Origin: Shinella sp. PSBB067
GTDB lineage: Bacteria > Pseudomonadota > Alphaproteobacteria > Rhizobiales > Rhizobiaceae
NCBI RefSeq assembly: GCF_016839145.1
Contig: NZ_CP069303.1
Location: 1,178,001-1,242,000 of the forward strand
Direction: 5' to 3'
DNA: 64,000 nucleotides
This document shows, one piece after another, positions 6,096 through 51,493 of the stretch. The position numbers and the translations under genes are program-made. The notes under the pieces are model-generated. The model was not told the origin of the DNA. It did not search any database and was given only the letters and a program-made list of their open reading frames with translations. Position 1 is the first letter of the stretch. Every line of letters begins with the position of its first letter.

Positions 6096-6392
6096 TCACG
6101 CGAAGCGGATGATCGCCACTTCCCCCTCGAGGGCGCCCTTGTAGGCGGAGGCATGCGGTTCGTCCTCGGGCGCGCCGTTCAGCGTGCCGATCTGGTCGAG
6201 GTCGGCCTCCAGGAATCCTTCCTCCGAAAGCGCATTCAGCGCCTCGCGCACGGCGGTGTCGTCGTCTGGCGCGCTCAGCATGACGTGGATGTCGATGCCA
6301 TCGGCGCCCTCGCGCTCGTAGGCCTTGCCGATGATGATGAAGACCATCGGCTCGTCGAGCGTATTGTTGTCGTTGTCGGCGCTTGACGCCAT
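6096..6392 (-). CDS. Conserved hypothetical protein, 98 aa
   Basis: A small acidic protein beginning MASSADNDNN, with an alternating hydrophobic core (PMVFIIIGKAYE, GEVAIIRFA) that suggests a compact alpha/beta fold. I do not recognise a family. I chose ATG 6392 because AAAGGAG lies just upstream; a longer reading to 6548 is Arg/Pro-rich and looks non-coding. There is no signal peptide, membrane segment or cysteine cluster, so it is probably cytoplasmic. It converges on the peroxidase gene with an 18 bp gap. Confidence 0.7.
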   Translation of the reverse strand: MASSADNDNNTLDEPMVFIIIGKAYEREGADGIDIHVMLSAPDDDTAVREALNALSEEGFLEADLDQIGTLNGAPEDEPHASAYKGALEGEVAIIRFA

Positions 6393-42579: not shown

Positions 42580-42634
42580 TGGTGCGGGCGGCGGGGATCG
42601 AACCCGCACAGCCAAGGCCGAGAGATTTTAAGTC
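42580..42634 (-). pseudogene. Host tRNA-Leu(UAA), detached 3' half (left element junction)
   Basis: On the minus strand this reads, from the anticodon loop onward, the 3' anticodon stem, long variable arm, T arm (GCGGGTTCGATCCCCGC), acceptor strand CGCCCGC and ACCA. The 5' half is missing: beyond the 11-bp core (42624-42634) the next bases are element DNA that does not restore the anticodon stem. The matching 5' half lies at 51453-51493. Joined at the core they make a textbook tRNA-Leu(UAA). Confidence 0.93.
42624..42634. repeat. attL core
   Basis: The 11-bp sequence GATTTTAAGTC, identical to the right-end copy at 51453-51463. It covers the anticodon loop (TAA anticodon on the minus strand). 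Flanking bases differ between the two ends. Confidence 0.88.
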
Positions 42635-42693
42635 CTGTGGACGATTTTCCGGCATAATAAAAACAATATGTTAGACGGGCATCTGCGACCATT

Positions 42694-42736
42694 TGGTCAC
42701 AGGATGGGGCACAACTGGTCACAGGTTGGTCACGAG
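42694..42736 (+). repeat. Candidate integrase arm-type sites, left end
   Basis: TGGTCACAGG at 42694-42703 and 42716-42725, and the variant TGGTCACGAG at 42727-42736, all in the same orientation, 60-102 bp inside the left core. The same decamer occurs twice inside the right end. Such short repeats on both sides of a core are the pattern expected of arm-binding sites for a lambda-type tyrosine integrase. Confidence 0.65.
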
Positions 42737-42738
42737 TT

Positions 42739-42767
42739 TTGACGTGCCCCAATGCAAGAGATATACA
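42739..42767 (+). promoter_or_regulatory. Promoter of the element tRNA-Leu
   Basis: TTGACG (42739-42744) and TATACA (42762-42767) with exactly 17 bp between, 15 bp upstream of the tRNA. It is among the strongest sigma70-type matches in the window. Confidence 0.75.
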
Positions 42768-42782
42768 ATTTAGGGAATCGTT

Positions 42783-42865
42783 GCGGGCGTGGTGAAAGGG
42801 TAAACACAGCAGACTTAAAATCTGCCGCCGATGGCTTGCGGGTTCAAGTCCCGCCGCCCGCACCA
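42783..42865 (+). tRNA. tRNA-Leu, anticodon UAA, carried by the element
   Basis: A complete 83-nt type II tRNA with encoded CCA. The acceptor GCGGGCG pairs with CGCCCGC; the anticodon stem GCAGA/TCTGC encloses loop CTTAAAA (anticodon TAA, reading UUA and UUG); the variable arm is GCCGATGGC; the T arm is GCGGG TTCAAGT CCCGC. It is distinct from the split host tRNA-Leu(UAA), for example TTCAAGT against TTCGATC in the T loop. It has its own promoter. Its 3' end overlaps the antisense 79-codon ORF by 22 bp. Confidence 0.95.
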
Positions 42866-43083
42866 ACGGCGATGAGAGACCACACATTGCGCAAGGTCAG
42901 CTTGTCGCGCTCGACTTCCTTAGCCCACGTTTTCTTGAACGCCAGCCACTCGTTCCACTCCATGGGGCGGATAGGCTTCCCGTCTCGGTCGAACAGGAAG
43001 GAAACCCGCTTCCGCTTGAACATACGGATCGTGGAGTGAGTGCCGTGGTTTTCCACTAGGAACTGGGTCTTGGCGAGGTCCAT
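42844..43083 (-). CDS. Small element protein, 79 aa
   Basis: A hydrophilic protein, MDLAKTQFLVENHGTHSTIR..., that I do not recognise. Its start overlaps the stop of the upstream gene (TGATG), a sign of a real coupled gene. Its last seven codons and stop are antisense to the tRNA T arm and acceptor, so its C-terminus (GAGGGT) seems to come from the tRNA sequence and the gene may be truncated. Confidence 0.55.
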   Translation of the reverse strand: MDLAKTQFLVENHGTHSTIRMFKRKRVSFLFDRDGKPIRPMEWNEWLAFKKTWAKEVERDKLTLRNVWSLIAVGAGGGT

Positions 43084-43307
43084 CAGATTTCATCCAGAAT
43101 GATGGTGTCAGCGCGGGTTCCATGAATGCGAGACACCTGTTGCGGGTTCGGGCCGGGTGTGCGGCCCCGAAAGTCCACAAAGGCATGACCGTAGATGATC
43201 GCCTTGGTGAGAAGATCGGCGTAGTCCTTGAGGGACACCGCCCTCGGGGGGAAGTTGAACTCCAGTTGCCGGGGATCGGGCCTCGGCTTGACTCCTCGGA
43301 CGTTCAT
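43083..43307 (-). CDS. Small element protein, 74 aa
   Basis: Begins MNVRGVKPRPDPRQLEFNFP and contains SLKDYADLLTKAIIYGHAFVDFRG. No family recognised. I chose ATG 43307 because GGAGG lies 9 nt upstream; a start nine codons earlier would include that site. The stop overlaps the next ATG by one base. Confidence 0.65.
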   Translation of the reverse strand: MNVRGVKPRPDPRQLEFNFPPRAVSLKDYADLLTKAIIYGHAFVDFRGRTPGPNPQQVSRIHGTRADTIILDEI

Positions 43308-43461
43308 GCTGTTCGCCTCCAATGGCTGTTGCAAGGGTGCGAGCCGCCGAAGCGGCGCGCGGGGTGTTAATCATGATCTCCATGAGGAGGAGCTTGGTGT
43401 CCGCGTAGGAAAACCCCGCACGATTGGCGAGGATATGGACCCCTGTGCGGTTCTCAGCCAT
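43108..43461 (-). CDS. Hypothetical element ORF, 117 aa, C-terminal half doubtful
   Basis: It starts with an ATG overlapping the preceding stop codon (TAATG) and gives MAENRTGVHILANRAGFSYA then DTKLLLMEIMINTPRAASAA, which looks coding. After about residue 55 it becomes Arg/Pro-rich and runs 200 bp inside the next gene in another frame. A frameshift after residue 55 is the likely explanation; the true product may be about 55 residues. Confidence 0.4.
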   Translation of the reverse strand: MAENRTGVHILANRAGFSYADTKLLLMEIMINTPRAASAARTLATAIGGEQHERPRSQAEARSPATGVQLPPEGGVPQGLRRSSHQGDHLRSCLCGLSGPHTRPEPATGVSHSWNPR

Positions 43462-43850
43462 TACCAACCCTTGGTGATCTTCGGCTTCGGGGCGGCGTAG
43501 CCCTTCTTCCAAAACAGGCAATACTTGGTCTTGGCTGCGGCCACTTCCGGGTAGTCCCGGTCCTTCATCAGGGCCATGCAATCGCCGTGCTTGGTCCAGC
43601 CGGAGGAGACGGCGCGGTAATCGGCTTCGTTCTTGACCACGATTTCCTTCGGGTAGTTGAACCGCTTGTGGAACTCGGCAGGGAACTTTGTGGCGCGGGG
43701 CTGGAGACCGGGCGCGCGGCAATGGGTTCCCGCTGCGTTGCAGGACCAGTCGAACGGAACCTCGAACGCCTTGGCCGGTCGGGTGGCGGCGGCGACGGAG
43801 AGGACGACGGAGGCGGCAATGGCGATAGCGATAACGGTGGAGGTCTTCAT
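43461..43850 (-). CDS. Secreted or periplasmic element protein, 129 aa
   Basis: It has a clear Sec signal peptide (residues 1-28, MKTSTVIAIAIAASVVLSVA then ATRPAKA) followed by a soluble domain with four cysteines that could pair as disulfides. AAAGGACC precedes the ATG. No family recognised. A secreted product in a lysogenic region suggests alteration of the host envelope or surface, as an inference only. Confidence 0.7.
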   Translation of the reverse strand: MKTSTVIAIAIAASVVLSVAAATRPAKAFEVPFDWSCNAAGTHCRAPGLQPRATKFPAEFHKRFNYPKEIVVKNEADYRAVSSGWTKHGDCMALMKDRDYPEVAAAKTKYCLFWKKGYAAPKPKITKGW

Positions 43851-43865
43851 GTTGGGGTCCTTTCG

Positions 43866-44003
43866 TTAGGGCGTGTTTCCGCCCGGAAGCGTCACCCAAA
43901 TGGTCACGCAGGGGATGAGGTTGAGGCACAGTCGGCGGTTGAACGGGGACCAGTGGGCCCCCATCCAGAAGCTGGCGAGGCGGAACAGAACTCCGGCCTT
44001 CAT
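43866..44003 (-). CDS. Small hydrophobic element protein, 45 aa
   Basis: This gene reads MKAGVLFRLASFWMGAHWSP then FNRRLCLNLIPCVTIWVTLP to GGNTP. It starts one base after the stop of the SPFH gene, within a tight cluster, and has a hydrophobic C-terminal half with two Cys. I recall similar short proteins ending in TIWVTLPGG in other phages of proteobacteria, but cannot name a function. Confidence 0.65.
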   Translation of the reverse strand: MKAGVLFRLASFWMGAHWSPFNRRLCLNLIPCVTIWVTLPGGNTP

Positions 44004-44004
44004 G

Positions 44005-44853
44005 TCACTTCCCGACGTTCACGAACGGGAGGGACGCACCGGGAACCATCGTGGTCGGGAGGACTCCGCTCCACTTCTCGACGGCGGTGAGGTCCACCAG
44101 CGAGGGGTTGTCACGGAGGGCTGCGCCTCGGGCGCGGATTGCGTCGGCTTCGGCCTCGCCCTTGAGGCGTACTGCATCGGCTTCTGCCTGTGCCTGTGCG
44201 CGGGTGGCGTCGGCGGCGGCGCGGGCCTGTGTGACGGTGATCTCGGCCTGAACCTTCTCACGCTCGGCGTTCTGTCGGAGCTTCTGGACCTCGATCTCGG
44301 CGCTCATGCGCTCCTCGATCTTGGCCTCGTAGGTGTCCGAGAAGTCGATATTCTCGATCTGAACGCTCTCGATCACGACAGGGCCGACAACGGCGTCCTG
44401 CAAGGTCATCTGAATGTCGGCGTTCAGCTTTCCGCGCTCGGTGATCGCCCGCTGCGCGTTGTAGCCGCCGAAGACGTTCTTGACCTGCGCCATCAACTGG
44501 CGCTCAACCAGTCGGGACATAAGGTTGTCTTCCGTGCCGTATTCCGAATAGACGAGACCTGCCTTGTCGCCGGGGATCGAGTAGTTGATCGAGACGTGGA
44601 GCGCCGCCGTCTGCTGGTCCGCCGAGTAGGCCATGACGTTCTCGTAGGTCTTGGCCTTCGAGCGAATATCGACGGTGCGAACGCCGTCCACGAACGGCAT
44701 CTTGAAGTGAAGGCCGGGCTCCGCGACGGTCATGATCGCGCCGTTGCGGGTGACGACGCCGCGTTCACCCTGATCGACCACAAAGAAGGAGCCGAAGGAG
44801 GTAGCGGCAATTGCGAGGGCGGCGACACCGAGGGCTGCGAATTTAACGGACAT
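44005..44853 (-). CDS. SPFH/prohibitin-like membrane protein
   Basis: A 282-residue protein with an N-terminal membrane anchor (about 5-26), an SPFH domain (FVVDQGERGVVTRNGAIMTV onward to about 180) and an Ala/Glu/Arg-rich coiled coil (about 180-240, with repeats such as ARAAADATRAQAQAEADAVR). Host relatives HflK/HflC and prohibitin assemble as rings that modulate the FtsH protease. On a phage element it may influence FtsH, and so lysogeny, or block superinfection; both are inferences. It overlaps the upstream 45-codon gene by 11 bp. Confidence 0.85.
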   Translation of the reverse strand: MSVKFAALGVAALAIAATSFGSFFVVDQGERGVVTRNGAIMTVAEPGLHFKMPFVDGVRTVDIRSKAKTYENVMAYSADQQTAALHVSINYSIPGDKAGLVYSEYGTEDNLMSRLVERQLMAQVKNVFGGYNAQRAITERGKLNADIQMTLQDAVVGPVVIESVQIENIDFSDTYEAKIEERMSAEIEVQKLRQNAEREKVQAEITVTQARAAADATRAQAQAEADAVRLKGEAEADAIRARGAALRDNPSLVDLTAVEKWSGVLPTTMVPGASLPFVNVGK

Positions 44854-44980
44854 GCTTGGTTCCTTTCTTGGAGGTCTTGGATCGGGTGTTGGTTGCGTCG
44901 TTGAAGAACTTGGCGGCGGCGAAGATGCCGATGATGATGAGGGCCGCGATGACGGCCCGACCGATCAGGGTGGCGATCAT
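44843..44980 (-). CDS. Single-span membrane protein, 45 aa
   Basis: MIATLIGRAVIAALIIIGIF then AAAKFFNDATNTRSK and a basic tail: one membrane helix and a positively charged cytoplasmic end. Its ATG overlaps the preceding stop (ATGA), and its end overlaps the SPFH start by 11 bp, so it belongs to the same translated string and may be its partner. Confidence 0.65.
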   Translation of the reverse strand: MIATLIGRAVIAALIIIGIFAAAKFFNDATNTRSKTSKKGTKHVR

Positions 44981-45372
44981 GCGGTCGCCTCCAGAGCGGC
45001 GTAGGTGAAGCTGCGGAACGGGCCCGGAACCCACTCGGCTTCCGCATCGGTTGCCACGATCACGTCGAGGCCGAGCGCCCCGTCGAACCAGAGGCCGACC
45101 ACTTCCTTGCAGTCCTCGAACGAGTAGTGAGCCCGGATACCGCCGTGCTGGAGGTCGTGGGTCGAGCGGACGAGGTTGTGCAGGAGGTCGAGAAGCGTAT
45201 CCGAGAGGTGGAAGACCGCGGTGTCGCCGGGGATCAGCGAGAGGTCGCCGGACGCGGCGTCGAGCTTGAAGCGAAGGCCGGTGCCGTCGCCGTCAACGAG
45301 GGCTCCGGTGATTACTAGCGTCGGGAAGACGCCCTGCGGCGGGTTGACGTAGCATTCGAGGTCTTTGAGCAT
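44977..45372 (-). CDS. Hypothetical element protein, 131 aa
   Basis: An acidic soluble protein, MLKDLECYVNPPQGVFPTLV, with FHLSDTLLDLLHNLVRSTHD and a central GDLSLIPGD. No family recognised. AAAGGAAG lies upstream. It is the first gene of the small-protein and SPFH string, starting 20 bp downstream of the integrase terminator. Confidence 0.6.
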   Translation of the reverse strand: MLKDLECYVNPPQGVFPTLVITGALVDGDGTGLRFKLDAASGDLSLIPGDTAVFHLSDTLLDLLHNLVRSTHDLQHGGIRAHYSFEDCKEVVGLWFDGALGLDVIVATDAEAEWVPGPFRSFTYAALEATA

Positions 45373-45391
45373 TTGGCTTCCTTTCGGTGCG

Positions 45392-45423
45392 CAAAAGAAA
45401 AGCCCCCGGCGGGACCGAGGGCT
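45392..45423 (-). terminator. Terminator of the MarR-like-integrase unit
   Basis: On the minus strand AGCCCTCGG (45423-45415) pairs with CCGGGGGCT (45409-45401) with G-U help, followed by TTTCTTTTG. It lies 38 bp after the integrase stop and separates the integration module from the SPFH string. Confidence 0.8.
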
Positions 45424-45460
45424 GCGTGGACTTCATCAATGGATGGTTGGTTCGGAGGCG

Positions 45461-46471
45461 CTATGCCGCTTCCAGAACGTGGACGATCTCCTCAAGGGAG
45501 GTCGGTCTGATCTGCATGTAGCGCATGGTCGTGACGATGGCCGAGTGGCCCATCCATTCCATGACGCGCTTCACGTCTACCCCGCCGAGAACCAGCCGGG
45601 TGCAGCAGGTGTGCCGGAGCGTGTGCGGCGTTACGTCCCCCATCTGAAGGGCTTCCCGCATGGTGTCCCATCGGGACCGCATGGCTCCCCGAGCGAAGCC
45701 CTCGAACGGGCCCCATCCCTTCACCTTCTTCCGCTCCTTGAGGATCGCTTGGCATCGCTTGGTGAGCGGAACGGTGCGCGGCTTGTTGGTCTTGGTGTGC
45801 CAGAACGTCACCGACTTGAAATCGGGGCCGAAGGCGTCCCACCTGACCGGGACCATTTCGGAGAAGCAGCGGGCTCCGGTGTCGATCAACAGGATCGTCA
45901 GATCGTGGAGGTCGTCGTAGCCCATGCTCTCCCAGTAGGCGAGCAAGGCGCGCTCCTCTTTGTCGTCCAGATACCGGAAGCGGGTCTGCTCGATCTTGTT
46001 CCACCGGAGGCGCGGTGTGTTGACCACGATGCCGTTGTCCTTTGCCACCTTGAGGAGCTTGGATAGTGCGGCGGTACGCTTGTTGACGGACGACGGCGTG
46101 AGGCCCTTGTCCGCGAAGTGGACCCGCATGTCGGCAGCTTCTGCCGGGGTGATCTCGCTGACTACCTTGTTCCGACCGAAGTATTCGACCACCTGCAAAC
46201 CGTTGCGCAATAGGGACGGTGCGGCTCGCATGTCCTTCCATTCGGTGCGCGCAACGTGGTCGTAGAGGTTCCCGAGGAGGGTAAGGTCGCGGCCTGTCTT
46301 GGCGCGGGGGATCGTGGTGGCCGGAGGGAGAGGCTTCCCCTGTTCAATCGCCAGCTTCGCGGCGGTTTCCCATGCCTCGGCCTCGGCGCGGGTCTTGAAG
46401 GTTGGCCGGAGGCGTTTCCCCTCCGGTGTACGCACGTCTGCTTGAAAGAGGCTACCCCGTTGTCGGGCCAT
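45461..46471 (-). CDS. int: Tyrosine recombinase, phage integrase
   Basis: A 336-residue integrase. The N-terminal about 60 residues form an AP2-like/arm-binding region (MARQRGSLFQADVRTPEGKR), then a SAM-like core-binding domain (about 65-150) and the catalytic domain. All catalytic residues are present: Arg201 (TGARCFSE), the beta-hairpin Lys near 227, His283 and Arg286 (HTLRHT), His309 (MGHS) and Tyr318 (MRYMQ). The enzyme is therefore predicted active. AGGAG precedes the ATG. It should recombine the GATTTTAAGTC core. Confidence 0.95.
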   Translation of the reverse strand: MARQRGSLFQADVRTPEGKRLRPTFKTRAEAEAWETAAKLAIEQGKPLPPATTIPRAKTGRDLTLLGNLYDHVARTEWKDMRAAPSLLRNGLQVVEYFGRNKVVSEITPAEAADMRVHFADKGLTPSSVNKRTAALSKLLKVAKDNGIVVNTPRLRWNKIEQTRFRYLDDKEERALLAYWESMGYDDLHDLTILLIDTGARCFSEMVPVRWDAFGPDFKSVTFWHTKTNKPRTVPLTKRCQAILKERKKVKGWGPFEGFARGAMRSRWDTMREALQMGDVTPHTLRHTCCTRLVLGGVDVKRVMEWMGHSAIVTTMRYMQIRPTSLEEIVHVLEAA

Positions 46472-46841
46472 TCGCTTCTCCTATGATTTCGTCTATGCGG
46501 TCCCCTAAGTTCCGCCCGAGGCGGGTCGGGGCGATGATGTTGGATCGTGTATCGGTTACGTCGGGAACCTGCGTTATCAAGTTCAGTCCATGCTCACGGC
46601 GGCTACCGTCCCCATCATGGGTGAATGCTGTGGACCCCAAGGTGCGGACTGCTCTCGATAGCGCAGACTTCGACAGACCTGTGGCCCGGACCAAATCCGC
46701 TGCGGTTGTTCCGGGCTTGTTTAGTATGTGGAGGAGGACAGAGAGTTGGCTTATCTCCATACGCGGGTAGAGTTCCCTGATCTCCTCCACGATCCTGATT
46801 AGGGCTTTCACCCCCGCGTTATTAGGTTGCTTCTTGGTCAT
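46452..46841 (-). CDS. MarR-like winged-helix protein
   Basis: A 129-residue protein whose centre, YPRMEISQLSVLLHILNKPG then TTAADLVRATGLSKSALSRA, matches the winged-helix reading head of MarR-type regulators. It lies directly upstream of int and overlaps it by 20 bp, and both follow a strong promoter, so it may regulate integration or act as a lysogeny repressor. ATG 46841 follows AAAGG. The C-terminus is not family-like. Confidence 0.7.
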   Translation of the reverse strand: MTKKQPNNAGVKALIRIVEEIRELYPRMEISQLSVLLHILNKPGTTAADLVRATGLSKSALSRAVRTLGSTAFTHDGDGSRREHGLNLITQVPDVTDTRSNIIAPTRLGRNLGDRIDEIIGEANGPTTG

Positions 46842-46873
46842 GGCACCCACCTTTGGTTCCCGTAATGGGTCTT

Positions 46874-46902
46874 TTATAAGCCGCCTCCCTTCCGCCCGTC
46901 AA
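46874..46902 (-). promoter_or_regulatory. Sigma70-type promoter of the MarR-like-int unit
   Basis: On the minus strand TTGACG (46902-46897), 17 bp, TTATAA (46879-46874), then 32 bp to the MarR-like start. It would let the host polymerase express the integration module independently of the phage polymerase. Confidence 0.7.
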
Positions 46903-47087
46903 TTTGGCGGCGAGAGGATTTTCATTCCCTGCTCCAGCTTCGCCTTCGCCCATTGAATGGGTTGCTGAACGTCCTTCCCAGTGGGCTCGGCCCCGTTGGC
47001 AAGGGCACGGATGGCGCACAATAGAAACTCTGCGGAGACCGAGAGAGCTTCGATACCATCCGAAACGGTCTTCGACTGATCCTGCAT
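46899..47087 (-). CDS. Small element protein, 62 aa
   Basis: MQDQSKTVSDGIEALSVSAE then FLLCAIRALANGAEPTGKDV: a short helical, soluble protein with no recognised family. ATG 47087 is preceded by GGAAG; a TTG two codons upstream is an alternative. It follows the candidate phage promoter near 47118-47150. Confidence 0.55.
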   Translation of the reverse strand: MQDQSKTVSDGIEALSVSAEFLLCAIRALANGAEPTGKDVQQPIQWAKAKLEQGMKILSPPN

Positions 47088-47134
47088 GTTCAACTTCCTG
47101 TCTCTTGTTGTCTTTGAGGGACGATTGCCCGTCC

Positions 47135-47239
47135 CTATGGTCGAAAAAACGTGTCATACACGCCCCAGATACCCACCCCCGTCGCGAGGACGAGGAAGGC
47201 GATCTGGATAATACGGAGCAGAACTTCATACGTGGACAA
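47135..47239 (-). CDS. Possible single-span membrane peptide, 34 aa (TTG start)
   Basis: A short ORF reading STYEVLLRIIQIAFLVLATG then VGIWGVYDTFFRP, a convincing membrane helix. The start would be TTG 47239, with AGGAGG 12 nt upstream, inside the end of the peptidase gene. The start and even the existence of the gene are uncertain. Confidence 0.4.
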   Translation of the reverse strand: MSTYEVLLRIIQIAFLVLATGVGIWGVYDTFFRP

Positions 47240-47245
47240 ACTTTT

Positions 47246-48319
47246 TTATCGCCTCCTACGAATCAACCCACTACAGGCACTAACTCGTTTTTCGTAGCCG
47301 TAGAAGAGGGAGACTTGATCCAAAATGTCATGTTTGTTTATGCCGCACCCTTCGAGGAGGTCCACGATCAGGTCCGGGTACTCCAGAACCAGTTCCTTGA
47401 AATCCACATCGGCGGCATAATCGGCCCCTGAAAGTTCGCCGTAGCGGGTGCCGTAGAACGGCAGATAGTCGTCATCATCCCACGGAGCCCGTGTCGGATC
47501 GCGCTCAATGACCAGCGACGAATAGTCAATCGTCAGGAGACGGTCGCGAAGCCAGATCAAAAATTTCACGTCCTGCGTTTCCCCATCTCCGTGCTGTCCG
47601 CGATAGCCGACAGAGACGTTCGTGCATTCGGGAATGATCCCCGCATATTCGTTCGTGTCCGTGTAGCTTCCACCGTCGTCGGGCCTGTAGCTGCCGCCGA
47701 GCGCCGCCGACAGGGACTTCGCGAAGGCGTCGGAGCATGTGCGCCGCCCCATCTGGTGCGTGATAACGTCCGTCTGGTAGGCCCGGTCGAAGGCCATTGC
47801 GAAGCGGAACTGGGACAGCCACATGGGATCGCCCTTGGCAAGGTCGCTGGAACCGATGCAACCGCTCTCCTCGCCGTGGTGGATGATGTAGGTTCCCGGC
47901 ACTCCGGCCTTGACCATTTCCATGATGAGCCAGATGCCCGCCGTGTCGTCGGCCCCAAGGCAGTTCGATCCATTCCGCTTCGCTTTCTTCGACAGGCGCA
48001 GGATGCCGTCATTCCCGTAGTGGAGCGACTGGATGCCCTCCACGTCATGCACCGTGTCCAGATGGGCCGAGAACAACCACGGCGCATCCTCTCCGACCGT
48101 CACGACGAGGTTGTCGAACGGGTCGCGGGTGAAGCCGAGAGGGCGAAGGTATGTGTCCACGAACGCCTGTTCCGTAGGGCTCCCTTTCGGTCGCATGTAC
48201 TTGAACAGGCGGATGATGTTGCGCTCGTCATCGCTCAACTGGGTCGCCGGGGGCGCATAGGGCTCCTCGGTCTTGCGGGCATACTTTCCATAGCCGAACG
48301 CCTTGCGAAGGTTCTTCAC
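47246..48319 (-). CDS. M20/M28-type zinc metallopeptidase carried by the element (GTG start)
   Basis: A 357-residue protein with the binuclear zinc peptidase signature: LFSAHLDTVHD (His and Asp), CLGADDTAGIW (bridging Asp) and IIHHGEESGCIGSSD (catalytic and metal Glu). The N-terminal DERNIIRLFKYMRPKGSPTE resembles aminopeptidases and peptidase T-like enzymes. There is no signal peptide. The start is GTG 48319 after AAAGGAGC. The substrate is unknown; processing of a phage or host peptide is possible. It sits just downstream of the polymerase fusion. Confidence 0.82.
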   Translation of the reverse strand: MKNLRKAFGYGKYARKTEEPYAPPATQLSDDERNIIRLFKYMRPKGSPTEQAFVDTYLRPLGFTRDPFDNLVVTVGEDAPWLFSAHLDTVHDVEGIQSLHYGNDGILRLSKKAKRNGSNCLGADDTAGIWLIMEMVKAGVPGTYIIHHGEESGCIGSSDLAKGDPMWLSQFRFAMAFDRAYQTDVITHQMGRRTCSDAFAKSLSAALGGSYRPDDGGSYTDTNEYAGIIPECTNVSVGYRGQHGDGETQDVKFLIWLRDRLLTIDYSSLVIERDPTRAPWDDDDYLPFYGTRYGELSGADYAADVDFKELVLEYPDLIVDLLEGCGINKHDILDQVSLFYGYEKRVSACSGLIRRRR

Positions 48320-48375
48320 GTTCCGGGCTCCTTTCAGGGAATGTCAGGGGGTGTAGAGGGGCCGAGCGGGCCGCA

Positions 48376-51246
48376 TCACGCGGCCAGCGCCAGTTCGGCT
48401 TGATTGTCGTTGTCGAAGCGCCCGAGCATGGTCACGCCGCGCTCCTCCAGCCATGCGTCAACGTAGCTGGCGATGCAGGGGAGATTGCCGCTGTCCACGA
48501 ACGTCCCGTCCGAAAGCTCCTTGCGGGCATCCTCGTCGTCGGACCACGCCTCGGCGTATTCGCACCAGTAGCAATGCTCCTCGGCCCAATCGGCGGATAC
48601 CGTGCGGCCATCGGAAAGCTCGACGCTTTCGTGACGGCTACCGTCGTACCAGCGCTCGGTTTCCTCGCAGTAGAACCAATTGCCACGCTCGGCTCCCCGG
48701 TCGGACAGCGACGTGCCGCAATCGGTCTCGACCTGCCTGTCATCCGGGTAGTAGTCGTTCATTTCCTCGCAGAAGAAGTACCCGTCATTCAGGCAGCTAG
48801 AGCAGACGTGCCGGTCCACGGTGTCCACATAGGTCCGGTCGTCCTCGTGGGTCGGCTCCTCGCAATCGTCGCAGCGATAGAGTTCGTCGGAGAGCCCGTT
48901 CGTGTTCCGAGCGCTGATCTCGCCCCGAGGGTCGATCACGAGGAACTTCCCGTCGTCGGAAACGCTGTTGCAGGTGTCGAGGTATGGCAGGATGGCCGAG
49001 TGGTGCGCCGTGGTGCCGTAGCTGTCGTGGATCATGGCGAACTTGTTGATCCCCTTGTCCACCGCTGCGCAGACCGTGAGGACCAGCGCGGAGGCGTCGA
49101 GGGAATGGACAAAGTTCGGGGCCACCCCGTTGACCTGACGGCGAGCGTCGATCTGGTCCGGCAGTTCTTCCGACACGCGAGGCGCGAAGCGTTCGCCAAA
49201 CAGGAGCGTGTTGAGGCGCTTCTGCTTCATTTCCGGGTAGAACTGGAAGACCGGGAAGCCGGACGGCGTGGTCCAGTGAAGGGGCTCGCCTTCCTTGACG
49301 ACTGTCCCGGCCACCTTGCGCAGCCAGCCCATAGCCAGACGAGCGGACACGACGGTTTCCCCGATACCCTTCCAGACGATGGAGGCCAACCAGTTGATCG
49401 CTTGGCTTTTCTCCTCGTCGGAGAACGGGAGGTTCCCCTTGTCCATCACGGCGTCGGCAACGTACTTCTGGCACGAGTTAAGGGTGCCGCCATACGGAAG
49501 GACCATGACCGGGCGCTTGGTGATCTTGCGGTCGATCCCGACGTGCCGCCACGCGAAGGCCCATTTCTGCTCCTCCTCGGTGCCGTCGCGGGTGATCCGC
49601 TTGAGTTCGCCCATCACCCAGTCCGCGACAACGCCATAAATGTCCTGCGGCTTGTCCGAGGGGACAAGGTTCACGGCGCGGCCCGCAACCGGGTCTTGGA
49701 GCATGGCCGAGTAGTGCTGGAGGCCGTTGCACGAGCCGTCCATTGCAATCGGGAGCCGGGAAACGAACGGGGTCTCCCGCTGGAGGGGCCACCCCATTTC
49801 CAGATACTCGAAGGCCCACGCGAGGAAGCAGAACGGGCTATCCGCTTCGGTCCACCAAAGGTCGTCTAGTGGGGCCTTTGCGCACGAGAGGATGCGTTCC
49901 CGATTTTCTGCGGTCCAAGCCACTCGCTCATCGAAGGAAACCTTATCAACGCCGAAGCAGTTGGCTCCGTGGATGAGAAACCACCGGAGTTGTTCCGGGC
50001 GGGTGATGGGATCGCCGGAGGAGAACTGGAGCAGTCCTTTCGAGAGGTCCGTTCCCTGCGGGTTAAGGCCAGAGGCAACAGCATAAATGCGCCCCCGGAA
50101 ATCAAGCTGATATGGGAAGTAGATGGCGTCATAGTTTGAGAACTCCGAGGCGACCGCGAGGGTCTTGAAGGCTTGGACCCTCCGGCTCTTGAGGGACGTG
50201 TTGGTTTCGTAGGTGATCGCCGCCAGCCGCCGCCACGCCTTCCGAGCCTCCTCGTTGGTGTCAATGTCGGTAGGCTTGGTGGGCAACGGAAGCACGTCGG
50301 CGGGAAGACCGGCCACGCCAGCCCCGCCACGCATCAAGTGATCGGCCACTTCGAGAACCTTCTGGTTCACCGACCACGGCGTCCGCTGGATCGCATTGAC
50401 CGCCTTGTAGACGAGCGAGAGGTCGGCCTTCTTGAGCAGCCGCATGTGCTTCTTCGAGCGGGTCTTCACGAGGCGCAGCGGATACGCGAAGGCGTCCGAG
50501 TGGTATCCGCCCCCGGTGAGCCCATCCCAGTCCTTCGGCGGCACGATGCACGGCAGGTACTCGGGGAACATGATTTCCGACTGGAGGTTCAACTGGTCGA
50601 GCCACGTCTTGAACCTGTCGGTGATCGAGACCATGGCGATGGGTCGCCGCTTGATCTTGAGCGTTTCGATTTCGATCAGGCCGGTAGCGACGGCGACGAT
50701 CTCGATCAGCTTGATCCCGACGATCACCTTGTCGCTGGTGGACCACGGGGTCCAGCCGTCCTGCCCTTGGGCGCAGATTGCCATGAGGGCGCGGCGGCGG
50801 TGATCCGCGTGACCGGTCCTGCTTTCGAGGAGCCGCTGTGCGTTCTTCACCCCGACCGGGTTCTTCTTCTCGTAGGAGTGCAGCCGCTGTTCGGTTTCGA
50901 TGAATGCCCCGACGCGGTTGGCTAGGACGGTCAACTCCCGGTCCCGCACGATGCCGTCGAGGACCAGCTTGAGGGTGATGTAGGCGACGGACACGGCGTC
51001 CAGCCCGTCGATTGCCTTGACCGCCGAGTGGCGGCGACCGGCCTTCCCGGCAAGGGCCTCCTCACGGAACTGCTCGATGGCGGCGGCGACCGGCTCAATG
51101 GCCGCGTCCAGTGCGGTCTTGACGCTGCGGCTGTCGGAGGCCGCGCCGTGCTGGAGGTTGTCCTGATAGGCATCCCGGTACTTGTCCACCCCGAGGGAAG
51201 CCATTCGTTCTTCCAAGCGAAGCTGCTCGGCCATGAGGTCGGTCAT
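48376..51246 (-). CDS. T7-type single-subunit RNA polymerase with a foreign Cys-rich C-terminus
   Basis: A 956-residue protein whose first ~750 residues are a phage RNA polymerase: DFRGRIYAV (382-390), catalytic Asp503 in MDGSCNGLQHYS, the O-helix pattern R573-K577-M581-Y585-G in RKITKRPVMVLPYGG, and second catalytic Asp741 in IHDSYGT. In T7 about 70 more polymerase residues follow, ending in the FAFA foot. Here, after about residue 755, that part is replaced by ~200 residues with CxxC-like clusters (RCDDC, HVCSSC, FFCEE, WFYCEETERWYDG, CYWCEY). This suggests fusion to another gene by deletion, so activity is doubtful. The start follows AGGAG. Confidence 0.92.
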   Translation of the reverse strand: MTDLMAEQLRLEERMASLGVDKYRDAYQDNLQHGAASDSRSVKTALDAAIEPVAAAIEQFREEALAGKAGRRHSAVKAIDGLDAVSVAYITLKLVLDGIVRDRELTVLANRVGAFIETEQRLHSYEKKNPVGVKNAQRLLESRTGHADHRRRALMAICAQGQDGWTPWSTSDKVIVGIKLIEIVAVATGLIEIETLKIKRRPIAMVSITDRFKTWLDQLNLQSEIMFPEYLPCIVPPKDWDGLTGGGYHSDAFAYPLRLVKTRSKKHMRLLKKADLSLVYKAVNAIQRTPWSVNQKVLEVADHLMRGGAGVAGLPADVLPLPTKPTDIDTNEEARKAWRRLAAITYETNTSLKSRRVQAFKTLAVASEFSNYDAIYFPYQLDFRGRIYAVASGLNPQGTDLSKGLLQFSSGDPITRPEQLRWFLIHGANCFGVDKVSFDERVAWTAENRERILSCAKAPLDDLWWTEADSPFCFLAWAFEYLEMGWPLQRETPFVSRLPIAMDGSCNGLQHYSAMLQDPVAGRAVNLVPSDKPQDIYGVVADWVMGELKRITRDGTEEEQKWAFAWRHVGIDRKITKRPVMVLPYGGTLNSCQKYVADAVMDKGNLPFSDEEKSQAINWLASIVWKGIGETVVSARLAMGWLRKVAGTVVKEGEPLHWTTPSGFPVFQFYPEMKQKRLNTLLFGERFAPRVSEELPDQIDARRQVNGVAPNFVHSLDASALVLTVCAAVDKGINKFAMIHDSYGTTAHHSAILPYLDTCNSVSDDGKFLVIDPRGEISARNTNGLSDELYRCDDCEEPTHEDDRTYVDTVDRHVCSSCLNDGYFFCEEMNDYYPDDRQVETDCGTSLSDRGAERGNWFYCEETERWYDGSRHESVELSDGRTVSADWAEEHCYWCEYAEAWSDDEDARKELSDGTFVDSGNLPCIASYVDAWLEERGVTMLGRFDNDNQAELALAA

Positions 51247-51261
51247 TCAATTTCTCCTAGC

Positions 51262-51283
51262 TGGTCACAGGATTGGTCACAGG
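51262..51283 (+). repeat. Candidate integrase arm-type sites, right end
   Basis: TGGTCACAGG at 51262-51271 and 51274-51283, identical in sequence and orientation to the left-end copies. They lie between the polymerase start and attR. A related TGGTCAAATG occurs at 51345-51354, and an inverted repeat GGGCAC/GTGCCC at 51285-51301. Confidence 0.65.
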
Positions 51284-51452
51284 CGGGCACGATCCGTGCC
51301 CAAATCCACTGGGCACAGAAATTCCGTGCCGATAATGGGACGATCTGGTCAAATGAAAAAACGGCCCGGACGCGGGCGAATAATTCTTGGAAATTCAGGA
51401 AGTTGGGGAGGTTTTGGGAGCGATAGTTTCGCTAATGGGACGGTAAACTGGG

Positions 51453-51463
51453 GATTTTAAGTC
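51453..51463. repeat. attR core
   Basis: Second copy of the 11-bp core GATTTTAAGTC, at the 3' edge of the host tRNA 5' half. Confidence 0.88.
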
Positions 51464-51493
51464 TCTTGCGTCTACCAGTTTCGCCACGCCCGC
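51453..51493 (-). pseudogene. Host tRNA-Leu(UAA), detached 5' half (right element junction)
   Basis: On the minus strand: GCGGGCG acceptor, TG, D arm GCGAAACTGGTAGACGC, then AAGAGACTTAAAATC ending in the anticodon loop core. Next comes CCCAGTTTACC from the element instead of the required TCTCT, so the anticodon stem cannot form. Its promoter is intact upstream. Confidence 0.93.

Follow-up and report, generated by a model that had tools for sequence, protein, structure and literature searches.

tRNA-dependent lysogeny is an already published form of phage integration, described in actinobacteriophages by Guerrero-Bustamante and Hatfull in 2024 (PMC10865867), in which a tyrosine integrase acts at a short core in the anticodon region of a single-copy host tRNA gene, neither junction rebuilds the gene and the phage brings a tRNA of the broken isotype. 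That paper gives common cores of 8–17 bp for the dependent phages (Table 2 therein) and reports experiments in Mycobacterium in which efficient, viable integration needed the phage tRNA. Outside the actinobacteriophages, it mentions the Lactobacillus prophage Lj965 as a possible case. Two Lo5R7ANS-like prophages of Sinorhizobium meliloti split tRNA-Leu(UAG) and supply a replacement, according to Vladimirova et al. 2024 (PMC11476347), whose authors cite tRNA-dependent lysogeny; PMC12429752 restates this case, and the mechanism is also named in PMC13015707. Here we describe an 8.8-kb insert in the tRNA-Leu(UAA) gene of Shinella sp. PSBB067, contained in a 64,000-nucleotide stretch of contig NZ_CP069303.1 (the window). 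It is a broken T7-like temperate prophage, and very probably one of the tRNA-dependent-lysogeny kind, whose cargo tRNA would have replaced the sole host tRNA-Leu(UAA). The evidence consists of a split gene, the only intact copy found, phage relatives, a deletion fusion, and a rebuilt gene in the joined flanks.

The insert interrupts the anticodon loop of the host gene, and an 11-bp core, GATTTTAAGTC, is present at both of its ends (Table 1). On the forward strand of the window the core occurs at 42624 and 51453 only, and its single reverse-strand copy, at 42812, falls within the cargo tRNA. Neither the left nor the right junction, nor that of the circular form, yielded a tRNA with ARAGORN; the flanks joined in silico gave an 85-nt tRNA-Leu(UAA). 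The first-pass annotation of this DNA had placed the split and its 11-bp core at these coordinates, had held that the anticodon stem is restored at neither junction, and had predicted that precise excision would rebuild the host gene; the sequence agrees with all of this. The attB overlaps the host tRNA gene, the Campbell-type outcome, in which the tRNA gene is reconstituted at one junction, is absent from the window insert, and a core of 11 bp with neither junction rebuilt agrees with the short cores of tRNA-dependent lysogeny. Chance is untenable as a source of this split-plus-cargo layout because other phages and genomes share the organization. Group I introns occur in tRNA-Leu(UAA) of cyanobacteria, and an intron in the host gene was considered and set aside; the insert has an integrase, phage genes and core repeats.

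The cargo tRNA-Leu(UAA) is the single tRNA called by ARAGORN in the window. It is well formed (61.7 bits with Rfam, fold inspected) and identical to the host tRNA-Leu(UAA) at 69 of 85 aligned positions. A promoter-like TTGACG-17-TATACA site with 9 of 12 consensus bases starts 44 nt upstream; it is unlisted by a stock promoter scan because the rule of that scan requires a T ending the second hexamer. A complete, different tRNA-Leu(UAA) behind this site had been noted before and was located as described. The whole genome (5.77 Mb in four contigs; completeness 100, contamination 2.33) was then the scope of the search for another copy that the first-pass annotation had proposed. All 45 Rfam tRNA matches were typed by ARAGORN: the leucine anticodons CAA, UAG, CAG and GAG are found once each, and UAA in the element only. 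A separate pattern combining the UAA anticodon loop and the T-loop matched only the host 3′ half and the cargo gene, so that no second intact host tRNA-Leu(UAA) was detected in the 5.77-Mb genome by Rfam, ARAGORN typing or the pattern. Subject to the inventory gaps discussed below, the broken tRNA gene is thus without an intact duplicate in the host, as in tRNA-dependent lysogeny. UUA decoding requires tRNA-Leu(UAA), and the codon is rare but used, accounting for 60 of 63,483 codons and present in 41 of 144 open reading frames (ORFs of at least 200 aa, taken longest first and non-overlapping from twelve 20-kb samples). The earlier suggestion that the cargo tRNA restores function in trans is supported: it agrees with the sole copy found, the well-formed cargo tRNA and a host gene that precise excision would rebuild.

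That the insert is a gutted T7-like prophage was absent from the first-pass annotation. Its tyrosine integrase, the type used in tRNA-dependent lysogeny, has the catalytic motifs TGARC, HTLRH and GHSAIVTTMRY. Identity to prophage contig G021 is 80% for the integrase, 80% for the SPFH protein, 70% for the peptidase and 80% for the RNA polymerase, and to prophage contig G022 it is 75% for the integrase and 80% for the SPFH protein. The closest complete phage found, Rhizobium phage Pasto (MT708545; 42.4 kb), is 58% identical in the integrase, 54% in the polymerase, 66% in the SPFH protein and 59% in the peptidase. Pasto shares tRNA-Leu(UAA) adjoining the core ACTTAAAAT, between its SPFH and polymerase genes; its description proposes only that the tRNA sequence may be an integration site (PMC8407765). 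In Pasto, as in Fionnbharth (PMC10865867), the tRNA is antisense to a coding gene. G022 has tRNA-Leu(UAA) and an opposite-strand host 3′ half approximately 160 bp apart, and G021 opens with host sequence and the 5′ half, its final bases being a partial opposite-strand tRNA at the contig end.

The largest ORF of the insert is a fusion. Residues 1–751 of this 956-aa ORF align to the G021 polymerase at 1.2–3.5 kb, and residues 751–956 to a 536-aa ORF of G021 at 50.1–50.7 kb; because its two parts match distant G021 genes, the ORF is a deletion product. The polymerase C terminus common to G021 and Pasto is absent from it. The insert is therefore not a complete T7-like phage (Autographiviridae): the single-subunit RNA polymerase is not intact but truncated at about residue 751 and fused in frame to another ORF, and no replication, head, tail or lysis genes such as those of Pasto were detected among the ten insert ORFs scanned.

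Table 1. Features of the insert and of the split host gene, in window coordinates
Feature	Position	Strand	Basis
Host tRNA-Leu(UAA) 3′ half with CCA; core 42624–42634	42580–42634	−	Sequence, ARAGORN
Insert between core copies, 8.8 kb, remnant of T7-like temperate prophage	42635–51452		Core positions, phage relatives
TGGTCAC(A) repeats near left core, possibly arm-type integrase sites	42694–42733		
Promoter-like TTGACG-17-TATACA upstream of cargo tRNA	42739–42767	+	Consensus match only
Complete element-borne tRNA-Leu(UAA), only one found in genome	42783–42865	+	ARAGORN, Rfam, pattern
129-aa ORF	43461–43850	−	Match of 65% in G021 and of 59% in phage Pasto
SPFH (Band 7) membrane protein, phage gene	44005–44853	−	PF01145; 80% identical in G021, G022
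131-aa ORF	44977–45372	−	52% identical in G020 remnant
Tyrosine integrase, 336 aa	45461–46471	−	PF00589, phrog_1, phage relatives
MarR-like regulator, overlaps integrase start	46452–46850	−	phrog_9665, PF12802
M28-like peptidase, phage gene	47246–48319	−	phrog_4191, PF04389
Fusion ORF: T7-like RNA polymerase (residues 1–751) and end of another phage ORF (residues 751–956)	48376–51246	−	
TGGTCACA, TGGTCACA, TGGGCACA repeats near right core, possibly arm-type integrase sites	51262–51317		
Host tRNA-Leu(UAA) 5′ half; core 51453–51463	51453–51493	−	Sequence, ARAGORN

We propose that the phage integrase recombined attP, with a mere 11-bp core, into the anticodon loop, which would have destroyed the sole host tRNA-Leu(UAA), and that the phage-borne tRNA-Leu(UAA) would from then on have read UUA. 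Later, a deletion brought the RNA polymerase gene into frame with a phage gene that had lain far from it, and would at the same time have carried off the genes for replication, structure and lysis. The tRNA-bearing end stayed, with essentiality and selection the presumed cause: it would have been kept because a deletion taking it should be lethal while the host gene is split. Precise excision would be harmless, unlike deletion of the cargo.

The window element belongs to an already known mechanism because it matches tRNA-dependent lysogeny as set out in PMC10865867 and PMC11476347. It shares with the actinobacteriophage systems the integrase type, the short anticodon-region core, the unrebuilt junctions, the single-copy host gene and a phage tRNA of the broken isotype, and differs from them in being T7-like, alphaproteobacterial, targeted to tRNA-Leu(UAA) and a remnant. 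The need for the phage tRNA rests on experiments in the actinobacteriophages (PMC10865867) and would be predicted for the window element. The Lo5R7ANS-like prophages are likewise T7-like, split a host tRNA-Leu and bring the replacement, and the Lo5R7ANS integrase is 35% identical to that of the window; they differ in their target, tRNA-Leu(UAG), in being classed as intact (PMC11476347) and in having the cargo on the other strand. Ordinary tRNA-gene integration with reconstruction uses the same anticodon-loop site and leaves a complete gene at one junction, whereas the window element leaves one at neither. Such a case is G211, where a 2.7-kb remnant of a related phage occupies the same site with the tRNA rebuilt and contains the polymerase start, the regulator and an integrase with a stop near residue 45. 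An inversion origin of G211 was set aside; its polymerase start comes after the rebuilt tRNA. As in G617, G533 and G548, one junction of G211 carries the complete gene and the opposite junction an additional 3′ half. We did not find the aftermath, remnants that hold the sole tRNA and in some cases have no recognizable integrase, described in open PMC papers.

A tRNA pattern was applied to a sample of 394 genomes of the family, of which 369 contained at least one match; genomes with at least two matches were inspected, those with one match were inspected within the genus only, and close pairs were examined in detail. At least two matches were present in 51 of the 394 genomes by hand count, comprising 8 split genes with cargo, 3 rebuilt tRNAs (G617, G533 and G548), 1 ambiguous locus and 39 judged unrelated by coordinates and matched letters alone, some of which may be second tRNAs (e.g., G637 contig C126). 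In eight genomes both native halves, 5′ and 3′, accompany a complete foreign tRNA-Leu(UAA): that of the window (G000, 8.8 kb), G594 (2.6 kb, with regulator and integrase), G511 (1.2 kb), G431 (1.1 kb), G358 (0.9 kb), G473 (14.6 kb), G517 (14.7 kb) and G703 (halves on two contigs). An extra ARAGORN tRNA at the 5′ half of G594 was taken as a false call, Rfam giving no match. In the ambiguous genome, G484 (L129 5157–5455), an intact host-like tRNA-Leu(UAA) lies about 200 bp from a decayed opposite-strand 3′ half, and perhaps represents lost cargo or a duplicate.

The cargo tRNAs of G431 and G358 score 59.9 and 56.2 bits, and none of the nine other long-arm tRNAs in each genome, all of them typed, is tRNA-Leu(UAA). 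In both genomes, tblastn with the window proteins and a family scan of a single ORF gave no integrase; for G511, alignment to the phage relatives gave none. The att layout, arm-like repeats and cargo tRNAs, rather than proteins, suggest that G431, G358 and G511 derive from T7-like phages. Overall, remnants of 0.9–3.8 kb outside the window retain an intact cargo tRNA, and in several only a fragment of the integrase, or none, was detected. The claim that the element is hard to lose by deletion thus gains comparative support, from a survey that would not register cargo-less elements.

All 21 genomes of the window's genus were surveyed. ARAGORN identified an intact tRNA-Leu(UAA) in 17, and each of these 17 loci (3-kb) has at least one of the window's host flanks. 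The gene is split and accompanied by complete cargo in three genomes: G000; G020, with a 3.8-kb remnant at the same site containing an integrase fragment, a different cargo tRNA and an SPFH gene; and G008, with a 14.7-kb element of another kind. None of the three split loci among the 21 genomes lacks complete cargo. In G002 (L178 190–275) the only tRNA-Leu(UAA) found agrees with the G008 cargo type at 83 of 86 positions and lies close to the same left flank, neither half of the native gene having been detected in the 40 kb examined; G002 may have undergone full replacement of the native gene or may be the source of such cargo, with either direction compatible. By BLAST, tRNA-Leu(UAA) is not oriented alike with respect to its flanks in all genomes of the genus (L048, L051, L052, L057, L060, L068 and L172). 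G009 has an extra tRNA-Leu(UAA) at 6254–6336 of the 16.9-kb contig C42 (L106) and an intact native gene elsewhere; from their translations, the ORFs of this contig look like conjugation proteins.

The element of G008 belongs to a group of islands of about 14.6 kb (G008, G473, G517 and G703) that we call satellite-like, a label of our own. G008 and G473 (L175 and L143) encode a Prim-Pol primase together with an integrase that contains an arm-binding domain, and G517 (L144) and G703 (L179–L181) align with G008 over approximately 9.7 kb and 1.2 kb, respectively. The island cargo tRNA is on the strand of the host gene, adjoining the 5′ half, with a variable slot behind it whose contents are of restriction-modification or candidate defence type. 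In G008 the slot is occupied by two methyltransferase-like genes; G517 has a C5-methyltransferase next to a SmaI-like endonuclease there, and G473 a member of the candidate defence family PDC-S28. The window insert could itself be a phage satellite or integrative element with tRNA-dependent integration as its regular lifestyle, rather than a dead prophage; its integrase and both core copies are intact, and these Prim-Pol-bearing elements occupy the same site in other genomes. We judge this very improbable, given that gene order and identity follow Pasto, G021 and G022, that the polymerase is truncated and its ORF pieced together from two phage genes, and that no primase-like or packaging-like gene is present among the ten ORFs scanned. 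The polymerase match also ends near residue 750 in the 20 phage records listed, the fusion not having been sought further.

Roles of phage tRNAs in lytic growth or in evading tRNA-cutting defences are discussed in PMC10865867; were one of these the main role of the cargo tRNA, the split host gene would be a side effect. This is quite improbable here. The cargo anticodon is that of the broken gene in G000, G020, G022, G358, G431, G511 and G594, the Pasto tRNA adjoins a core fitting the same gene, and the window element has lost its lytic genes yet retains the tRNA.

Retention of the prophage remnant by its cargo tRNA may be of an "addiction" type, as first conceived; it is the natural reading of the remnants, and the family data fit it. 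Several points weigh against it. The tRNA inventory is imperfect: tRNA-Ile(GAU) and tRNA-Ala(UGC) genes usually sit in rRNA operons, and because the 45 typed tRNAs include neither, the assembly or the tRNA search is not exhaustive. Expression and charging of the cargo tRNA are presumed. The family pattern requires a second tRNA-like match and is blind to elements that lost their tRNA, so that the figure of 8 in 394 falls short of a complete tally and does not prove selection. Finally, the window cargo is only about 150 bp from the core, and its survival may partly reflect position. In its strongest form this last point becomes a rival, that neighbourhood and not selection preserved the cargo, which would persist only since it adjoins the att site and is spared by internal deletions. 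A cargo-core spacing of approximately 150–250 bp in G000, G020, G022, G358 and G431 is what this predicts, and detection through a second tRNA match favours loci that kept cargo. We nevertheless consider it unlikely, although it is the strongest of the alternatives: cargo loss should be lethal where the host gene is split and a further copy was not detected, fragments of 0.9–1.2 kb retain a well-formed tRNA with no integrase found, and the cargo is complete at every split locus of the genus.

Extending selective retention from the window to the family, we slightly favour a view of tRNA-dependent lysogeny as a ratchet, in which the prophage may decay and its single-copy tRNA replacement may not. 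Fragments of about 1 kb would then remain with one evident function, an essential tRNA; one tRNA-Leu(UAA) site would serve, within the family, T7-like prophages as well as satellite-like islands, and so at least two kinds of element that are unrelated to each other; and native genes would be turned over species by species, perhaps to full replacement in G002. Once the integrase is lost, the swap would no longer be reversible by site-specific excision. Deletion is expected to erase prophages; in this case an essential decoding function apparently resides in a broken phage, and the retained tRNA offers a simple reason both for the persistence of the remnant and for foreign replacement of an essential tRNA gene. 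tRNA-dependent lysogeny would then take in another isoacceptor in T7-like phages, and satellite-like islands as well. A practical rule also emerges: where the halves of a split tRNA gene enclose an intact foreign copy, they mark the exact ends of a decayed element, and this works even where about 1 kb is left (G358, G431 and G511).

The SPFH gene is complete in both T7-like remnants of the genus (Table 1; G020, L172 12972–13817), and the two are 84% identical. Kept while most phage genes are gone, the SPFH protein may be useful to the host.

Integrase matches at E ≤ 1e-60 were present in 5 of 397 genomes of the order. The core ACTTAAAAT is absent from L069 and L070, two loci of integrase relatives, and no RNA polymerase match was detected in L069, L070, L107, L108 or L109, Devosia and Kaistia being among them; the 828-aa ORF of L069 was considered as a candidate RNA polymerase and proved not to be one. 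Nothing bearing on the tRNA question came from the integrase relatives carried by Pseudochrobactrum plasmids or from those in L125–L127. SPFH-like fragments lie upstream of 58–59% identical integrases in Kaistia defluvii and a second genome (L070 8790–8942 and L107 4558–4743). In phage Lo5R7ANS (L096 8569–10050), two genes with a tRNA splicing ligase annotation come after tRNA-Leu(UAG) and perhaps serve to repair cut tRNAs.

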